Source: Bacteroidota bacterium
GTDB taxonomy: Bacteria > Bacteroidota > Bacteroidia > Flavobacteriales > Flavobacteriaceae
Direction: 5' to 3'
Length of the DNA: 6,180 bases
NCBI GenBank assembly: GCA_023393485.1
Contig: JAEWLD010000063.1
Span: forward strand, 1-6,180
The stretch's first letter is position 1, and each line of letters starts with the position of its first letter. The position numbers and the translations under genes are program-made. The notes under the pieces were generated by a model, which was not told the DNA's origin, did not search any database, and saw only the letters and a list, made by a program, of their open reading frames with translations. This document shows, in pieces, positions 9-6,024 of the stretch.

Positions 9-1172
9 TTAATCGGACCGCCAGGAAGTCGTAAAACGGCACATCAGATTCAGGATATGTGTCCGGATGGCCAAATCTTCTTTAGTTAGTGAATGTCCTT
101 TAAACAAGGGCAATTGGTCAATTTCGAGGATTCGGTAATATTCTTCGATCGTCTTGACGTTTTGGCCAAAGCCATACCAGCTGTCACCAATTGCCGACAC
201 GCCGAGCCCAATCATAAGCCTGGTGTCTGAATCGGTATAACCCATGAAATTACGGTGAAGCCTGTTTTCTTCCACCGCGGTGAAAAGACTGTCTGATTCC
301 AGGGCAAAATGGTCCATCCCTATTTCTGTATAGCCGTGGTGTTCAAGCATGGCCCGACCGGTTTCGTAAAGCAGGCGCTTTTCATCGCCATGCGGGATGT
401 CTGACTCCTGGAATCCGCGCTGGCCGTTTCCTTTGATCCACGGCACATGTGCATAACTGTAAAACGCGATCCTGGACGGAAGCAGCGAAACGGTTTTTTC
501 AATCGTATCGATGATGTCTTTTTCTGTCTGGAAGGGAAGGCCGTAAATCAAGTCGTGCCCGATCGATGTAAAGCCGATTTCACGTGCGCGCAAGGTTACA
601 TTGGCGACGTTTTCATAGGGTTGGATCCGATGGATGGCCTTCTGGACTTTTTCAGAATAGTCCTGGACACCGAAACTAACGCGGCGGAAGCCAAGATCAT
701 AAAGTTTCTGGAGATGTTCACGCGTGGTATTGTTCGGATGGCCTTCGAAACTCATTCCGCAGGTTTCTGCCTTGCGGCCGGTCTTGAAAATGCCGTCGAT
801 CAGGATTTTCAGATTGGCAGACGAAAAAAAAGTCGGGGTGCCGCCGCCGAGGTGAATTTCCTTTACAAGCGGTTTCTCGCCCAGCAATTCGCAGTACAGA
901 CGCCATTCTTTGAGCACGGCCGTAATGTAAGGCTCTTCAACGCCATGATTCTTTGTAATTCTCTTGTTGCAGCCACAGAACGTGCAAAGACTTTCGCAGA
1001 ACGGCAAATGAATATAAAGGCTGATGCCTTCCGCTGAATTTTCGGCAAAGCAGCGCCTGACATTATTTTGCCAGCCGGCAAGTGAAAATGAATCATCCCA
1101 ATAAGGAACGGTTGGGTAACTTGTGTACCTTGGTCCGGGAACATTGTATTTTTGGGTGAGCGATGGAGTCAT
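9..1172 (-). CDS. hemN: Oxygen-independent coproporphyrinogen III dehydrogenase, C-terminally shortened
   Basis: Radical-SAM enzyme that converts coproporphyrinogen III to protoporphyrinogen IX without oxygen, in the cytoplasmic heme pathway. Seen: PRYTSYPT near residues 15-21; the HemN cluster pattern C-x3-C-x2-C-x-C at Cys59, 63, 66 and 68; the preceding Tyr53; GGGTPT at 109-114; and SFEGHP near 141-146 with the Glu expected to contact SAM. The ATG at 1172 gives the standard N terminus. The frame ends after CRFTTSW-RSD at residue 387, whereas the family usually has about 450-460 residues. The missing part would hold the conserved C-terminal RN-C-M-FD region. The first codons past the TAA read L-Y in the same frame, so a nonsense change, an indel or a sequence error is possible. 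The gene has its own candidate promoter and an FNR-type box upstream. The family call is very safe; intactness is doubtful. Confidence 0.93.
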   Translation of the reverse strand: MTPSLTQKYNVPGPRYTSYPTVPYWDDSFSLAGWQNNVRRCFAENSAEGISLYIHLPFCESLCTFCGCNKRITKNHGVEEPYITAVLKEWRLYCELLGEKPLVKEIHLGGGTPTFFSSANLKILIDGIFKTGRKAETCGMSFEGHPNNTTREHLQKLYDLGFRRVSFGVQDYSEKVQKAIHRIQPYENVANVTLRAREIGFTSIGHDLIYGLPFQTEKDIIDTIEKTVSLLPSRIAFYSYAHVPWIKGNGQRGFQESDIPHGDEKRLLYETGRAMLEHHGYTEIGMDHFALESDSLFTAVEENRLHRNFMGYTDSDTRLMIGLGVSAIGDSWYGFGQNVKTIEEYYRILEIDQLPLFKGHSLTKEDLAIRTHILNLMCRFTTSWRSD

Positions 1173-1188
1173 GACATTTAATTTTGCG

Positions 1189-1196
1189 CTAAATTA
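1189..1196 (-). promoter_or_regulatory. Candidate -7 element of the hemN promoter
   Basis: Read on the minus strand this is TAATTTAG, seven of eight bases of the Bacteroidota -7 consensus TANNTTTG. It would place the transcription start near 1183, leaving a leader of about 11 bases before the hemN ATG. No good -33 TTG lies at the usual distance, which fits a promoter that depends on an activator bound at the box centred on 1225.5. The call rests on weak sequence similarity plus geometry. Confidence 0.35.
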
Positions 1197-1260: not shown

Positions 1261-2073
1261 TCAATTATACTTTTCCGGCTTGTCATATTCAATTTCGGTA
1301 AGGTAAAAAACGGCATAGGTGAACTCTTTTCCGTCAAGCAGCCAAGTGGCTTTGAGCGTGTTTGGGATCAAGATGCCTTCGTGCCTTTTATAGCTTGACA
1401 TCCGGCCAATCCAGGTTTCGAGCCGCTCGCCCATATGACGACTGGTTTCTATCTGGACAATCTCAAAAGCGTCATTGAAAGTCACTATATAGCTAATTTT
1501 CAACTCGCTGTGCCGATAATTTAGTTTTGCATGGTACCGGTCAATGGCTTCCCACGTGAGGCTTTGGCCGGGAAGCAATGCCGTCGGAAACCAAACGCTT
1601 TCGCCAAGCCAGCGGAGCAATTCACCCTGCGAAAGCCTGACGCCGCCATTGTCGGCAACACGGAAAACCGAATACAAAAACACTTTCAGCCGTCCGTTTC
1701 CCGAAATGTACTGATCGATTGCCGTAAAGATTTTGGTTTTGCCCCGCCAGATAAATCCCGGTTTGGCTATCGTGAAATATTCCTCGCCACAGATCAGGGA
1801 CCAGGGTTTGTCTATCGCCGTTTTAAACCGGCCGCGATGTTTGAGCCGCGCGTAACTGATCCGGGGCCTGCCTTCGGGCAGGACATGATTAAAATAACGT
1901 TGTACGGGTTCGGGCAGCGACTTGAAATCAATCCGATGATAACGTTGCGGAACAAGTGCGGGCGAGTCCTTGAATAGTTTTTTCAAATCGCGGTTAAACC
2001 CCGATTTCGCCGCAAAGAACATAAACGCTACCGCAGTTACGGCAAGCCCGATGAAAATACAGATAAAAGTCAT
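1261..2073 (-). CDS. Membrane-anchored DUF6544-type protein of unknown function
   Basis: The 270-residue protein has one hydrophobic segment at about residues 3-22 and then a basic stretch, suggesting an N-terminal membrane anchor with the rest outside the membrane core. The following part shows the hallmarks of a widespread uncharacterised family (DUF6544/DUF6920 type, named from memory): LPEPVQRYF near 53-61, HVLPEGRP near 63-70, GELLRWLGESVWFPTALLP near 150-168, an internal ISYIVTFND strand, and a C-terminal Y-LTEIEYDKPE. Biochemical function is not known and no catalytic motif is evident. The length is normal for the family. The start is the ATG at 2073, 24 bases after the preceding gene, so it is probably the last cistron of the operon that begins at 3639. 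hemN follows after 88 bases. Confidence 0.8.
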   Translation of the reverse strand: MTFICIFIGLAVTAVAFMFFAAKSGFNRDLKKLFKDSPALVPQRYHRIDFKSLPEPVQRYFNHVLPEGRPRISYARLKHRGRFKTAIDKPWSLICGEEYFTIAKPGFIWRGKTKIFTAIDQYISGNGRLKVFLYSVFRVADNGGVRLSQGELLRWLGESVWFPTALLPGQSLTWEAIDRYHAKLNYRHSELKISYIVTFNDAFEIVQIETSRHMGERLETWIGRMSSYKRHEGILIPNTLKATWLLDGKEFTYAVFYLTEIEYDKPEKYN

Positions 2074-2950: not shown

Positions 2951-3169
2951 TTAATCCTCTCGTTTGGCCGTGCTGAAATTAAACGGCAGATACAGCAGGC
3001 AAAATCCGTTTAATGCGGCAATTACCATGGCTATTCCGAAAATTCCGAGCACAAGCTGGGCCGTGCCGCTTACCCTATCGATGCAGTAAAAAGCCAATGC
3101 CGCAAGGATGATCCGGATGATCCTGTCAAGCGTGCCGACATTTTTTTTGAGGTTTTTGATTACAGACAT
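2951..3169 (-). CDS. DUF2892 small inner-membrane protein (YgaP-like membrane domain)
   Basis: The 72-residue protein has the DUF2892 layout: an amphipathic N terminus with NVGTLDRIIR at about 10-19, a first membrane helix at about 18-30, a short loop, a second membrane helix at about 38-54, and the terminal NGFCLLYLPF motif with Cys57 (family form GFCPLY). In other proteins this domain is fused to rhodanese domains (YgaP) or stands alone, as here; its own activity is unknown. The start at 3169 is 14 bases after the stop of the upstream gene, so both are almost certainly on one transcript. The family call is firm and the function open. Confidence 0.88.
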   Translation of the reverse strand: MSVIKNLKKNVGTLDRIIRIILAALAFYCIDRVSGTAQLVLGIFGIAMVIAALNGFCLLYLPFNFSTAKRED

Positions 3170-3183
3170 GTTTTAAATTTGAA

Positions 3184-3639
3184 TTATTCGCCGTTGATGA
3201 CATCCTGCAATGCATCGTTGATTTCGCCCGCCTGGTAAAAAAAGAGCTTCTTGAATTCGGTGTTTGCCCTACCCGACGAACCGTCATAGCGCGTAAGTTC
3301 CCTGGTGAACGCCAGGTCTCTGTCCTGAAAACTGCTTTTTAACTCCGAAAGCTGATAATCGCTCTGCTGATAGATAAGATTCCACTTGATTTTATTGTCG
3401 CCGCTTGAGGTCGTATCAATCATCCGGCGCAACGTTTTGAGGTTGTTTTCCGTAATGCCGACAATCTTGTCTGCCGTCGTCCTGAAAGTTTTCCAATCTG
3501 CGACGACAAGTTCTTTTTTGGTGCCGACCGGTTCTACCGTCCTGCCTTCGGCCAGCTGTTCGTCCTGATCTTTCGCGCAGGTTTGCACGAGCAACAGCAC
3601 AAATGAAAATGAAAATACAGTGTTTCTAAATAATTTCAT
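3184..3639 (-). CDS. Small exported, probably lipidated helical protein; first gene of the operon
   Basis: The 151-residue protein starts with a classical signal (MKLFRN, then a hydrophobic run to about residue 19) ending in VQTC, so Cys21 may be lipidated, although Q-T before the Cys is not an ideal lipobox. The residues after it (AKDQDE) are acidic, resembling surface-export tags reported for Bacteroidota lipoproteins. The mature part is predicted mostly helical: helices begin near W49-K50 (DWKTFRTTADKI), around residues 62-74, 85-105 and 128-148. The repeated pattern of W-x-x-F, spaced helices and a final FKK-F-x-x-GEIND-ALQD faintly recalls the Sll1863-type stress-response family; this is only a suggestion. 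It is led by the divergent regulatory region and followed 14 bases later by the DUF2892 gene. Confidence 0.82.
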   Translation of the reverse strand: MKLFRNTVFSFSFVLLLVQTCAKDQDEQLAEGRTVEPVGTKKELVVADWKTFRTTADKIVGITENNLKTLRRMIDTTSSGDNKIKWNLIYQQSDYQLSELKSSFQDRDLAFTRELTRYDGSSGRANTEFKKLFFYQAGEINDALQDVINGE

Positions 3640-3665: not shown

Positions 3666-3673
3666 CAAAATTC
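3666..3673 (-). promoter_or_regulatory. Candidate -7 element for the minus-strand operon
   Basis: On the minus strand this reads GAATTTTG, seven of eight bases of TANNTTTG. The start of transcription would be near 3660, giving a leader of about 20 bases to the ATG at 3639. There is no convincing -33 TTG; instead the palindromic box centred on 3702.5 lies 36.5 bases upstream of its last base, exactly as in the hemN promoter. This suggests an activator-dependent promoter, but the element alone is weak evidence. Confidence 0.38.
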
Positions 3674-3696: not shown

Positions 3697-3708
3697 TGAC
3701 GGCCGTCA
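3697..3708. promoter_or_regulatory. FNR/Crp-type operator 1, perfect palindrome
   Basis: TGAC-GGCC-GTCA is a perfect 12-base inverted repeat matching the TGAY-N4-RTCA core of FNR/FixK sites. It is closest to the minus-strand operon and lies at about -41.5/-42.5 from its predicted start, the class II activation position. It is also the more distant site with respect to the kinase promoter. The probable ligand is the FNR-like response regulator encoded downstream of the kinase. Confidence 0.65.
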
Positions 3709-3718
3709 GCCAAAAAAG

Positions 3719-3730
3719 TGATTGCCGTCA
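3719..3730. promoter_or_regulatory. FNR/Crp-type operator 2
   Basis: TGAT-TGCC-GTCA keeps both half sites of the FNR/FixK core; the flanking G and C extend the dyad by one pair. Its centre (3724.5) is 22 bases, about two helical turns, from operator 1, so two dimers would bind on the same face of the DNA. It lies 46.5 bases from the end of the kinase -7 element (about -52 from the predicted start), which would suit class I activation or autoregulation of the kinase-regulator operon. Confidence 0.62.
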
Positions 3731-3742
3731 CGTTTTTATTTT

Positions 3743-3771
3743 TTGGCTTCGCACAATAATTTTTACATTTG
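3743..3771 (+). promoter_or_regulatory. Bacteroidota-type promoter of the kinase-regulator operon
   Basis: A -33 TTG at 3743-3745 and a perfect -7 TACATTTG at 3764-3771 are separated by 18 bases, matching the flavobacterial consensus (TTG, 17-23 bases, TANNTTTG). Transcription would begin near 3776-3778, leaving under 20 bases before the TTG start codon. With both elements present it probably has basal activity, unlike the two minus-strand promoters, and could be tuned by the boxes upstream. Confidence 0.62.
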
Positions 3772-3793: not shown

Positions 3794-4981
3794 TTGAAAA
3801 ATTCTGAATTACTTCAAGCAATTGTCCAAAATGCGATCGACGGCATTATCTCAATCGATGAGCGCGGCATTGTAGAAAGCATCAATCCATCGGGTTGCCG
3901 ATTGTTCGGCTATATGCCCGAGGAAGTCATTGGCAACAATGTATCGATGCTGATGCCGCCGCCAGACAGTCTTCAGCACGACCATTACCTTCGCCGGTAT
4001 CAGGTCACGCATAAGCCGAGAATCATCGGCATTGGCCGCGAAGTCACCGGTTTGCGCCGCGACGGCAGCACATTTCCGCTGCGGTTGGGCGTCAGTGAAG
4101 TGAAATACAATGACAAAATGTTTTTCGTGGGCTTTATCCATGACCTGACCCAGCAAAAAGAGGTCGAGGAACGGCTCAAGGATTACGCAGTCCATCTTGA
4201 GGAATTGGTTGAAATCAGGACGCAGTCATTGAATGAATCAATCCACGCGCTTGAAATCGCAAAGGAGCAGATCAGCGACTCGCTTGAAAATGAAAAAGAA
4301 CTCGGCAAGCTGAAAAGCCGGTTTATTTCTATGGCCTCGCATGAATTCAGGACGCCGCTCAGTACGATCCAACTTTCGGCTTCGCTCGTCGATAAGTACG
4401 CCGAGTCGGCCGGCATGAAAGAAATCACCAAACACGTGGGCAAAATCAAGGGTTCGGTGACCGGATTGACCGCGATACTCAATAATTTCCTCCAGATGGA
4501 GAAACTTGAAAGCGGAAAAGTCGAAGCCAATATTTCTGTTTTTGACCTAAAAGAGCTGGCTTTTGAAATCACCGAGGAAATGCAGCTGCTCGCCAAAACA
4601 AAACAAAGCATTGATTATCGGCATATCGGCAACCAGACCAAGGCCAATCTCGATAAAAACCTGATCAAAAACTGCATCGTCAATCTCATTACCAACGCCG
4701 TTAAATATTCAGGCGACGAAGCATTGATTGAATTCATCACCGAAATCAACCCTGAAAACTGCATCATCACCGTAAAAGACAACGGCATCGGCATTCCCGA
4801 AGAAGACCAAAAATATTTGGGCGATGCTTTTTTCCGCGCACAGAATACCGGCGCGATTCCAGGAACCGGCCTTGGCATAAACATCGTCGCACGTCATGTT
4901 GAATTGATGAACGGCGAGATGACCTTTGAAAGCCAACTCGGGCAAGGAACTTCATTCACCTTAAAATTCCCCACACAATGA
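3794..4981 (+). CDS. FixL-like PAS sensor histidine kinase, probable heme oxygen sensor
   Basis: Soluble sensor kinase of 395 residues, without membrane segments. Order: PAS at about 4-120; coiled-coil linker at about 121-175; HisKA dimerisation domain with the phospho-accepting His183 in SHEFRTPL; HATPase_c with the N-box NLITNAVKYS (N297, N301), G1 box DNGIGIP (D329), F box near 346-348 and G2 box GTGLGI (357-362). The PAS part matches rhizobial FixL closely: MLMPPPDSLQHDHY corresponds to the FixL segment with heme-ligating His200, giving His62 here, and IIGIGREVTG places Arg82 exactly 20 residues later, as FixL Arg220. Pocket residues I77, L98 and V100 correspond to FixL I215, L236 and I238. 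Oxygen or another gaseous ligand is thus the likely signal, though heme binding is inferred. The start must be the TTG at 3794: an in-frame TAA lies at 3779 and the next Met is inside PAS. It overlaps the regulator gene by ATGA. Confidence 0.93.
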   Translation: MKNSELLQAIVQNAIDGIISIDERGIVESINPSGCRLFGYMPEEVIGNNVSMLMPPPDSLQHDHYLRRYQVTHKPRIIGIGREVTGLRRDGSTFPLRLGVSEVKYNDKMFFVGFIHDLTQQKEVEERLKDYAVHLEELVEIRTQSLNESIHALEIAKEQISDSLENEKELGKLKSRFISMASHEFRTPLSTIQLSASLVDKYAESAGMKEITKHVGKIKGSVTGLTAILNNFLQMEKLESGKVEANISVFDLKELAFEITEEMQLLAKTKQSIDYRHIGNQTKANLDKNLIKNCIVNLITNAVKYSGDEALIEFITEINPENCIITVKDNGIGIPEEDQKYLGDAFFRAQNTGAIPGTGLGINIVARHVELMNGEMTFESQLGQGTSFTLKFPTQ

Positions 4982-6024
4982 CCAAAATACTCATTATAGA
5001 AGACAACGACGACATCCGTGAAAACGTAGTGGAAATCCTCGGGCTGGCCGGTTACGAAGTCTTTGAAGCCAACAATGGCCGAACTGGAGCCGAACTCGCG
5101 ATGAAAAAATTGCCCGATCTCATTTTGTGCGACATCATGATGGGCGACCTCGACGGTTATGGCGTGCTGCATCTGCTCAACAAAAACGCCGACACCAAGG
5201 CCATTCCGTTTATTTTCATGACGGCGAAGTCAGAGCGCGGCGATATCAGAAAAGGCATGGAACTCGGTGCAGACGACTACCTGACCAAACCATTCGACGA
5301 TACAGAATTGCTCAACGCGATTGAAACGCGGCTCAAAAAAAAGCTGATCCACCAGGAATTCTACAGCAAGTCGATCAAAGGGCTTTCTGAAATCGTTTCG
5401 CAGAAAGATGGTCTTTCGGGCCTGAAAGCCGCGCTCGATGAACGCAAGGTCAGGGCGTTCAAAAAAAACCAGGTCATTTATTATGAAGGCGACCGTGCCA
5501 ATGGCATTTGGGTTGTGCTTGATGGAAAAGTCAAAGTGACAAAAATGGCCGAAGACGGCCGCGAACTGATGACCGGCATGTTTGAATCAGACCATTTCCT
5601 GGCAATCAATACGCTTTTTTCAAATGGTTCGTTCATTGACACTGCGACCGCCGTCGAAGAAAGCCATCTGATACTTTTTCCTAAGGAGCAATTTGAGGAA
5701 TTCATCAACCTTTATCCTGACGTTGCAGGCAAATTCATCCGGATACTCAGCAGCCAGATCCGAAGCCAGGAAGAACAGCTGATGCAGCTGGCTTATCAGT
5801 CTGTCAGAAAACGCATTGCCGAAAGCCTGCTCAGGCTGCACCGGCAGGAAAATGATTCGCAGCATATTTCGGTTAGCCGGATTGATCTTGCGGCATTATC
5901 TGGAACCGCGCCCGAAACCGTAAGCCGTACATTGTCTGATTTCAAGGACGAGGGAATCATTGAAAAGAAAGGCAGTGCGATAACGATTGTCGATCTGAAA
6001 AAACTGGAACGAATCAAAAACTGA
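4978..6024 (+). CDS. Response regulator fused to a Crp/FNR-type DNA-binding module
   Basis: Cognate regulator of the adjacent kinase, 348 residues. Receiver domain at about 1-122 with acidic pocket E8/D9, phosphorylation site Asp52 (LCDIMM), Thr82 (MTAK) and Lys104 (TKPFD). A helical linker leads to a cNMP-binding-type beta-roll at about 155-245, a long dimerisation helix at about 245-280 and a Crp-type winged helix at about 275-345. The recognition helix PETVSRTL carries Glu313, Ser316 and Arg317, the FNR-type E-x-x-S-R pattern that reads TGAY half sites, rather than the Crp R-E-x-x-x-R. The Fe-S cysteines of FNR are absent (only Cys51), and the cAMP-pocket GE and RS/TA signatures are not kept. 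Control is therefore expected by phosphorylation rather than by a bound ligand. It is probably an activator of hemN and the divergent operon. The domain call is firm; targets are inferred from matching boxes. Confidence 0.93.
   Translation: MTKILIIEDNDDIRENVVEILGLAGYEVFEANNGRTGAELAMKKLPDLILCDIMMGDLDGYGVLHLLNKNADTKAIPFIFMTAKSERGDIRKGMELGADDYLTKPFDDTELLNAIETRLKKKLIHQEFYSKSIKGLSEIVSQKDGLSGLKAALDERKVRAFKKNQVIYYEGDRANGIWVVLDGKVKVTKMAEDGRELMTGMFESDHFLAINTLFSNGSFIDTATAVEESHLILFPKEQFEEFINLYPDVAGKFIRILSSQIRSQEEQLMQLAYQSVRKRIAESLLRLHRQENDSQHISVSRIDLAALSGTAPETVSRTLSDFKDEGIIEKKGSAITIVDLKKLERIKN

Follow-up and report, generated by a model that had tools for sequence, protein, structure and literature searches.

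Tandem FNR-type boxes 22 bp apart as a predicted class-II-like operator of a receiver–CRP regulator in Bacteroidota

Two palindromic FNR-type boxes lie in the gap between a sensor kinase–regulator gene pair and an oppositely oriented stress operon of a Bacteroidota bacterium. Their location raises the question of which protein reads them and which of the two operons they control. In the window, by which we mean the whole 6,180-nucleotide stretch analysed, the boxes occupy the following positions.

3697–3708: box 1, TGACGGCCGTCA, a perfect TGAY-N4-RTCA; the inner (promoter-proximal) box for the minus-strand operon
3719–3730: box 2, TGATTGCCGTCA, a perfect TGAY-N4-RTCA; the outer box for the minus-strand operon and the inner box for the kinase operon

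A sequence-only reading of this DNA had described two tandem FNR-type boxes, with centres two helical turns apart, in the divergent gap, and the description proved accurate in each respect. Both boxes match the motif perfectly, and their start-to-start distance of 22 bp corresponds to approximately 2.1 turns at 10.5 bp per turn. They are located between position 3639, the start of a minus-strand gene for a 151-aa protein, and position 3794, the TTG start of the kinase, in a gap of 154 bp. Elsewhere in the window, the motif is matched perfectly only at 1220–1231. The outer T and A of the extended form TTGAT-N4-ATCAA are absent from both boxes. The region is rich in loose TGA/TCA matches, from which palindromes could arise by chance: when up to one mismatch is allowed, the window contains 21 matches (shuffle mean 8.6), a number that exceeds every one of 200 shuffles. 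Single loose matches are therefore weak evidence, and the distinctive feature is the perfect pair. None of 300 dinucleotide shuffles of the window produced such a pair at 22 bp, the arrangement recurs in related loci, and a reversed-pattern control produced none in 247 genomes, which makes a chance origin scarcely credible.

The genes to the right of the gap encode a predicted two-component system.

3794–4981, plus strand: FixL-like heme-PAS sensor histidine kinase, 395 aa, TTG start, matching FixL 1dp6
4978–6024, plus strand: REC-CRP response regulator (receiver domain, cNMP-binding fold and Crp-type helix-turn-helix), 348 aa

The PAS domain of the kinase is of the heme-PAS type and matches the PDB entry of FixL, 1dp6, over residues 7–130 (E = 7.5e-32). 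Its H62 and R82 align with the heme-ligand His and the distal Arg of FixL, which we take to be H200 and R220 of B. japonicum. Since the kinase reaches 160.9 bits with the NCBIfam FixL equivalog NF041777, whose cut-off is 850, it is FixL-like and not FixL proper. The regulator is a member of the CRP/FNR superfamily, with PF00027 and PF13545 both above cut-off, and its recognition helix reads E-T-V-S-R. Its sole cysteine, C51, is within the receiver domain; accordingly, it has no FNR-type N-terminal cysteine cluster and is not FNR proper. In cAMP-responsive CRP, the phosphate-binding cassette follows the pattern G-E-L ... R-S/T. The regulator has L-A-I...F-I-D in this place, aligned to G-E-L...R-T-S of chain 3h3u, so that its cAMP pocket looks lost and it falls outside the cAMP-responsive CRP proteins. 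Its Crp-type output also separates it from FixJ and FxkR, in which the receiver is joined to a non-CRP output domain.

To follow the boxes in related loci, 80 loci were fetched in addition to the window, and a locus was kept if an ORF of 380 aa or more, treated as the kinase, ends at the REC-CRP gene. This left 72 loci (71 and the window), with nine dropped. A perfect box occurs within 300 bp before the kinase in 51 of the 72 loci (200 shuffles: mean 1.6, largest 7) and is absent from 21. A pair at exactly 22 bp, with one box perfect and the other carrying at most one mismatch, is found in 33 loci (shuffle mean 0.005) and is missing from 39; the next commonest spacing, 56 bp, is represented by six loci. 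The 10-bp spacer between the boxes has a mean pairwise identity of 0.27 among 77 pairs, indicating that the distance is kept and not the sequence. A second set was drawn from the genus of Flavobacterium sp. BFFFF1; of 20 loci fetched there, one lacks a kinase ORF and 19 were used, one of which coincides with L001. Allowing two mismatches in all, the 22-bp pair is present in nine of these loci and absent from ten. The three closest relatives fetched (77–80% in the regulator) keep the 22-bp spacing, with one or two mismatches in the pair. The earlier reading would have both boxes and their spacing conserved in orthologous loci. This is borne out in part: the spacing recurs in both sets, but far from all loci have it, and the 22-bp pair is not universal in REC-CRP loci.

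The recognition helix, as read by eye, is E-x-x-S-R in L001–L058, L073 and the window, and E-x-x-I-R in the other 21 proteins, with L006 left out of the reading. The 21 E-x-x-I-R proteins all belong to a group of 22 distant REC-CRP proteins (L059–L080), many of whose kinases lack a FixL residue; the 22-bp pair is nonetheless kept in several of these distant loci. In ten loci, a pair is accompanied by a kinase in which one of the two FixL residues is missing. Oxygen is therefore not certain to be the signal across the family, and the signal may differ from locus to locus. The operator itself seems to go with the regulator.

The distribution of pairs over whole genomes bears on the identity of the protein that reads them. 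Among 14 chosen genomes with REC-CRP, 11 contain a perfect 22-bp pair, in 20 places, and the reversed pattern is found in none. When the gap was left free between 2 and 30 bases, the same genomes gave 63 pairs, compared with 5 for the control; as counted from the listing, the spacing is 22 bp in 20 of the 63, 23 bp in 16 and 21 bp in 7. Ten of the 16 pairs at 23 bp come from one Mucilaginibacter genome, and four of the seven at 21 bp from one repeat. A wider set of 247 Bacteroidota genomes from across the phylum contains 79 perfect pairs in 32 genomes, with 0 for the reversed-pattern control. REC-CRP was detected at E 1e-60 in 37 of the 247 genomes. A perfect pair is present in 23 of these 37 (the other 14 have none), compared with 9 of the 210 genomes without the regulator. 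In a looser search of the nine pair-bearing REC-CRP-negative genomes, only G192, with three pairs, proved to have REC-CRP (2e-56). G192 is kept as a negative in the main figures because pair-less genomes were outside the looser search; its addition changes the counts to 24 of 38 versus 8 of 209.

These figures can be set against a rival explanation, in which a stand-alone FNR or other CRP paralogue binds the pair and REC-CRP is only a neighbour. Stand-alone FNR-type proteins were defined by similarity to one from Chitinophaga: the match had to reach about 4e-40 and to fall in a frame shorter than 300 aa. This definition, whose cut-off was set after the match list had been seen, selects 53 of the 247 genomes, six of which match only from query residue 25 or later (cysteine part uncovered); two have an internal stop. 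Perfect pairs occur in 15 of the 20 genomes with REC-CRP and without FNR (52 pairs; 16 of 21 genomes with G192 added), in 8 of the 17 with both (16 pairs), in 5 of the 36 with FNR alone (5 pairs) and in 4 of the 174 with neither (6 pairs). The pairs thus follow REC-CRP without FNR far more often than FNR alone (p = 8e-6), and a looser FNR cut-off preserves the trend (11 of 15 REC-CRP-only genomes, p = 8e-5; 12 of 22 with both); these p-values are optimistic, because the loci and genomes are related, and serve as guides, not exact probabilities. The five FNR-only genomes have one pair each, and REC-CRP genomes up to 13. On the other hand, FNR-only genomes do hold these few pairs, at a higher rate than genomes with neither protein, and in one of them (G186) the FNR-type gene ends 149 bp before the pair. 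Furthermore, a second tandem system, spaced at 23 bp, is found in Mucilaginibacter close to other Crp-type genes. The four-way table lowers the standing of a stand-alone FNR as the sole reader of the pair.

The placement of the pair relative to promoters addresses the second part of the question. The available part of PMC9723704 describes TAnnTTTG as the sigma-A −7 box of flavobacteria. Elements of this kind were found on both sides of the boxes.

3666–3673, minus strand: predicted −7 element of the divergent operon, GAATTTTG, with one mismatch to TANNTTTG, starting 23 bp after box 1
3742–3745, plus strand: TTTG, a possible −33 element of the kinase promoter, 18 bp before TACATTTG, read from the sequence
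3764–3771, plus strand: predicted −7 element of the kinase operon, TACATTTG, a perfect TANNTTTG, 33 bp after box 2

The −33 designation follows a consensus that we assume to apply here. A total of 78 distinct pairs were examined for a −7 element: that of the window, 72 from the 247-genome listing and five from the 14-genome set. From the 13 pairs of G113, the eight listed were taken into the survey, and the pairs of G021 were left out. Three of the 78 pairs fall within a long ORF, each of them in a genome that lacks REC-CRP, and seven are without a suitable gene. The remaining 68 provide 96 pair–gene orientations, some of which have a gene in common. In 35 of the 96 orientations, an element that matches TANNTTTG with no more than one mismatch starts 23 bp downstream of the inner box, while any other offset from 0 to 99 accounts for at most 4. 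The 23-bp offset would place the inner box near −41, a class-II position. On the minus side of the window, the box stands at a fixed distance from the −7 element, as in class-II FNR-type promoters; on the kinase side, the distance is 33 bp and exceeds the recurring 23 bp by 10 bp. At promoters with a pair, the −7 element often starts with G or C rather than T (GA/CA-NNTTTG), as though they had been made weak in order to rely on the activator.

The same asymmetry is seen in the related loci. Among the 72 regulator loci, a −7 element at offset 23 is present on the divergent side in 23 and on the kinase side in 12. The second set has it on the divergent side in only 6 of 19 loci. In five distant loci (L061, L062, L065, L068 and L079), a single pair is flanked at 23 bp on either side by a −7 element with no more than one mismatch, an arrangement that is a symmetrical two-way promoter. 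The sequence-only reading had proposed that one pair of sites could set both operons. For the window, the divergent half of this proposal stands, with its −7 element at the recurring 23 bp; the kinase half is weakened, with its −7 element at 33 bp beside a −33-like TTTG of its own, and some distant loci are indeed two-sided. The pair might also be mainly an autoregulatory or repressing site of the kinase–regulator operon, its fit to the divergent operon being incidental. The frequent perfect boxes upstream of the kinase and the 12 loci with a kinase-side element would agree with such a role, as would the kinase promoter, TTTG-N18-TACATTTG, which looks strong by itself, as a repressible promoter might. 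Against it, the divergent-side element at 23 bp is found in nearly twice as many loci, including the window, and in the three closest relatives fetched; in addition, pairs stand beside many other genes. The kinase −7 element overshoots the recurring geometry by 10 bp, so that in the window autoregulation probably has less strength or another form. Its offset of 33 rather than 23 counts against control of the kinase operon as the main role of the pair. An autoregulatory or repressing site as the main explanation is very unlikely. In our reading, the pair forms a tandem operator of class-II-like type whose geometry suits the stress operon above all.

Single boxes followed by a −7 element at offset 23 were also counted, in 76 genomes comprising 38 with REC-CRP (G192 included) and 38 chosen without it. 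They number 246 and 51 sites, respectively (reversed control, 8 versus 5). There are 74 such boxes in the 20 REC-CRP-only genomes and 168 in the 17 with both regulators. The FNR-type proteins also go with single class-II boxes in the remaining groups, with 33 in six FNR-only genomes versus 22 in 33 with neither. Single boxes are thus distributed otherwise than pairs, suggesting that the single box is common to both regulators and that the 22-bp pair goes with REC-CRP. Their presence in FNR genomes without REC-CRP indicates that the box and its class-II place are not private to REC-CRP. On balance, binding of the pair by a stand-alone FNR or another CRP paralogue is unlikely. The link of the boxes to the regulator encoded next door, as drawn in the earlier reading, gains support from the recurrence of the pair in regulator loci and from its co-occurrence with REC-CRP across the 247 genomes, including those in which no stand-alone FNR was detected.

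Two further groups of genomes display other arrangements. Five genomes with REC-CRP and no perfect pair (G117, G121, G148, G196 and G212) contain 16–20 single class-II boxes each, and all five have an FNR-type match, that of G212 with an internal stop. In these genomes, the regulon is possibly shared or handed over between the two regulators. The second tandem system, found in one Mucilaginibacter and one Pedobacter genome (L235, L236 and L237), consists of CTTGA-N6-TCAAG-like boxes at 23 bp, with nine pairs in 35 kb in Mucilaginibacter. Oxidoreductases, YceI-like proteins and stand-alone Crp-type genes were recognised by eye beside its pairs.

The genes to the left of the pair are all on the minus strand and are listed from the promoter outward.

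3184–3639, minus strand: first gene of the divergent operon, 151 aa, N-terminus lipoprotein-like by eye
2951–3169, minus strand: YgaP-like transmembrane protein, 72 aa, PF11127
2469–2930, minus strand: OsmC-like protein, 153 aa, PF02566
2098–2472, minus strand: 124-aa protein with no family match in Pfam or NCBIfam
1261–2073, minus strand: DUF6544/DUF6920 protein, 270 aa
1220–1231, minus strand: single box before hemN, TGATGTGGGTCA on the minus strand, perfect, 23 bp before a −7-like element
1189–1196, minus strand: predicted −7 element of hemN, TAATTTAG, one mismatch
9–1172, minus strand: HemN, oxygen-independent coproporphyrinogen III oxidase, C-terminal part missing, TIGR00538 above cut-off

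The 151-aa protein has no Pfam or NCBIfam match at E 0.001; a homologue (29%) is encoded divergently in L215. HemN covers positions 7–382 of the 454 of TIGR00538 and ends at the window edge, and it is 451 aa long in the relatives L216 and L217. The loss of its C-terminal part is either a contig-end artefact or a truncated gene. The combination of a perfect box and a −7 element at 23 bp arises 0.003 times per window shuffle. With its own perfect box at this offset, hemN is predicted to be a direct target apart from the pair. In three related loci (L016, L032 and L039), hemN is located just downstream of the regulator.

The genes that accompany pairs elsewhere were read in relatives of the source genome. 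Pfam was applied to 94 distinct genes beside pairs, and 25 of the 71 families were listed as raw counts, with no background gene set. Among the matches listed, Usp is the most frequent (15), followed by BON and HSP20 (5 each). Glutamyl-tRNA reductase (HemA), FixS, YceI and PAS kinases, the last including the kinase of the window, are listed three times each, and COX1, FixO, pyruvate phosphate dikinase, CBS, flavodoxin and alcohol dehydrogenase twice each. Judged by these families, the genes beside pairs look like a low-oxygen and stress set.

Considering the box geometry, the co-occurrence and the promoter offsets together, the pair is probably a tandem operator on which two dimers of the neighbouring REC-CRP sit next to each other, with the divergent stress operon as the predicted target of activation. 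A CRP dimer covers about 22 bp, so that the 22-bp spacing would bring two dimers into adjacent positions on almost the same side of the DNA. The FixL-like kinase would carry heme, become active when oxygen falls, and phosphorylate the receiver domain of REC-CRP. Once phosphorylated, the dimer may recognise TGAY-N4-RTCA with its E-T-V-S-R helix. From a class-II-like position near −41, the inner dimer would contact RNA polymerase; the outer dimer, shifted upstream by one CRP footprint and lying on almost the same face, would reinforce the complex. The simplest reading of the sequence is a FixJ–FixK fusion acting from tandem class-II-like operators. A wider reading, rather doubtful at present, is a phylum-wide Bacteroidota low-oxygen regulon written in the code box-22-box-23-(−7) and read by the fused FixJ–FixK. 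The 22-bp tandem would force two adjacent REC-CRP dimers, as a tetramer built by phosphorylation, and would thereby separate its promoters from the single-box promoters of FNR, with a further Crp paralogue using 23 bp.

The proposed system can be compared with several established ones. At the class-II promoters of FNR and ANR, TGAY-N4-RTCA stands at a fixed place upstream of the −7/−10 element, and the targets are of the hypoxia type. Here, in contrast, the −7 element is the Bacteroidota TAnnTTTG, two boxes are present at 22 bp, and the regulator has one cysteine only and is predicted to be switched by its receiver domain. The DosR (DevR) regulon of mycobacteria is another case of two-component hypoxia control of universal stress and alpha-crystallin proteins; DosR has a LuxR-type output and an operator different from the TGAY-N4-RTCA pair. 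For NmpRSTU of Myxococcus xanthus, the available part of PMC11841059 describes heme-based signalling and binding of NmpR to the cbb3 and hemN promoters, and the paper also names universal stress proteins. That system differs in having an NtrC-like regulator and a protoglobin sensor. CRP/FNR homologues of Flavobacteriales are placed in a carbon-sensing group in the available part of PMC8510549, which does not name a receiver fusion for them. Among the papers listed by the literature searches, titles and abstract openings point to nothing on a receiver–CRP fusion or a tandem FNR operator in Bacteroidota, or on how such regulators of this phylum work.

A fused FixJ–FixK-type regulator with a defined operator and readable neighbours, from universal stress proteins and Hsp20 to cbb3 oxidase and heme synthesis, makes low-oxygen control in Bacteroidota directly testable. 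It also provides an annotation rule from sequence, namely two TGAY-N4-RTCA boxes 22 bp apart with a −7 element 23 bp further, and hints that related regulators could be separated by the spacing of their boxes. The closest parallel is the FixL–FixJ–FixK cascade of Rhizobiales, together with hFixL–FxkR–FixKf, which likewise combines a FixL-type heme-PAS kinase with an FNR-like output without an iron-sulfur cluster; the cbb3 genes beside pairs extend the likeness. FixK, as described in the available part of PMC4999443, lacks the iron-sulfur cluster and is activated through FixLJ. The system proposed here differs in its phylum, Bacteroidota, in its operator, a tandem pair at 22 bp, and in the union of receiver and CRP/FixK-like output in one protein, which leaves no FixJ step. 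Alphaproteobacteria split between FixJ and FixK what REC-CRP joins in a single protein.
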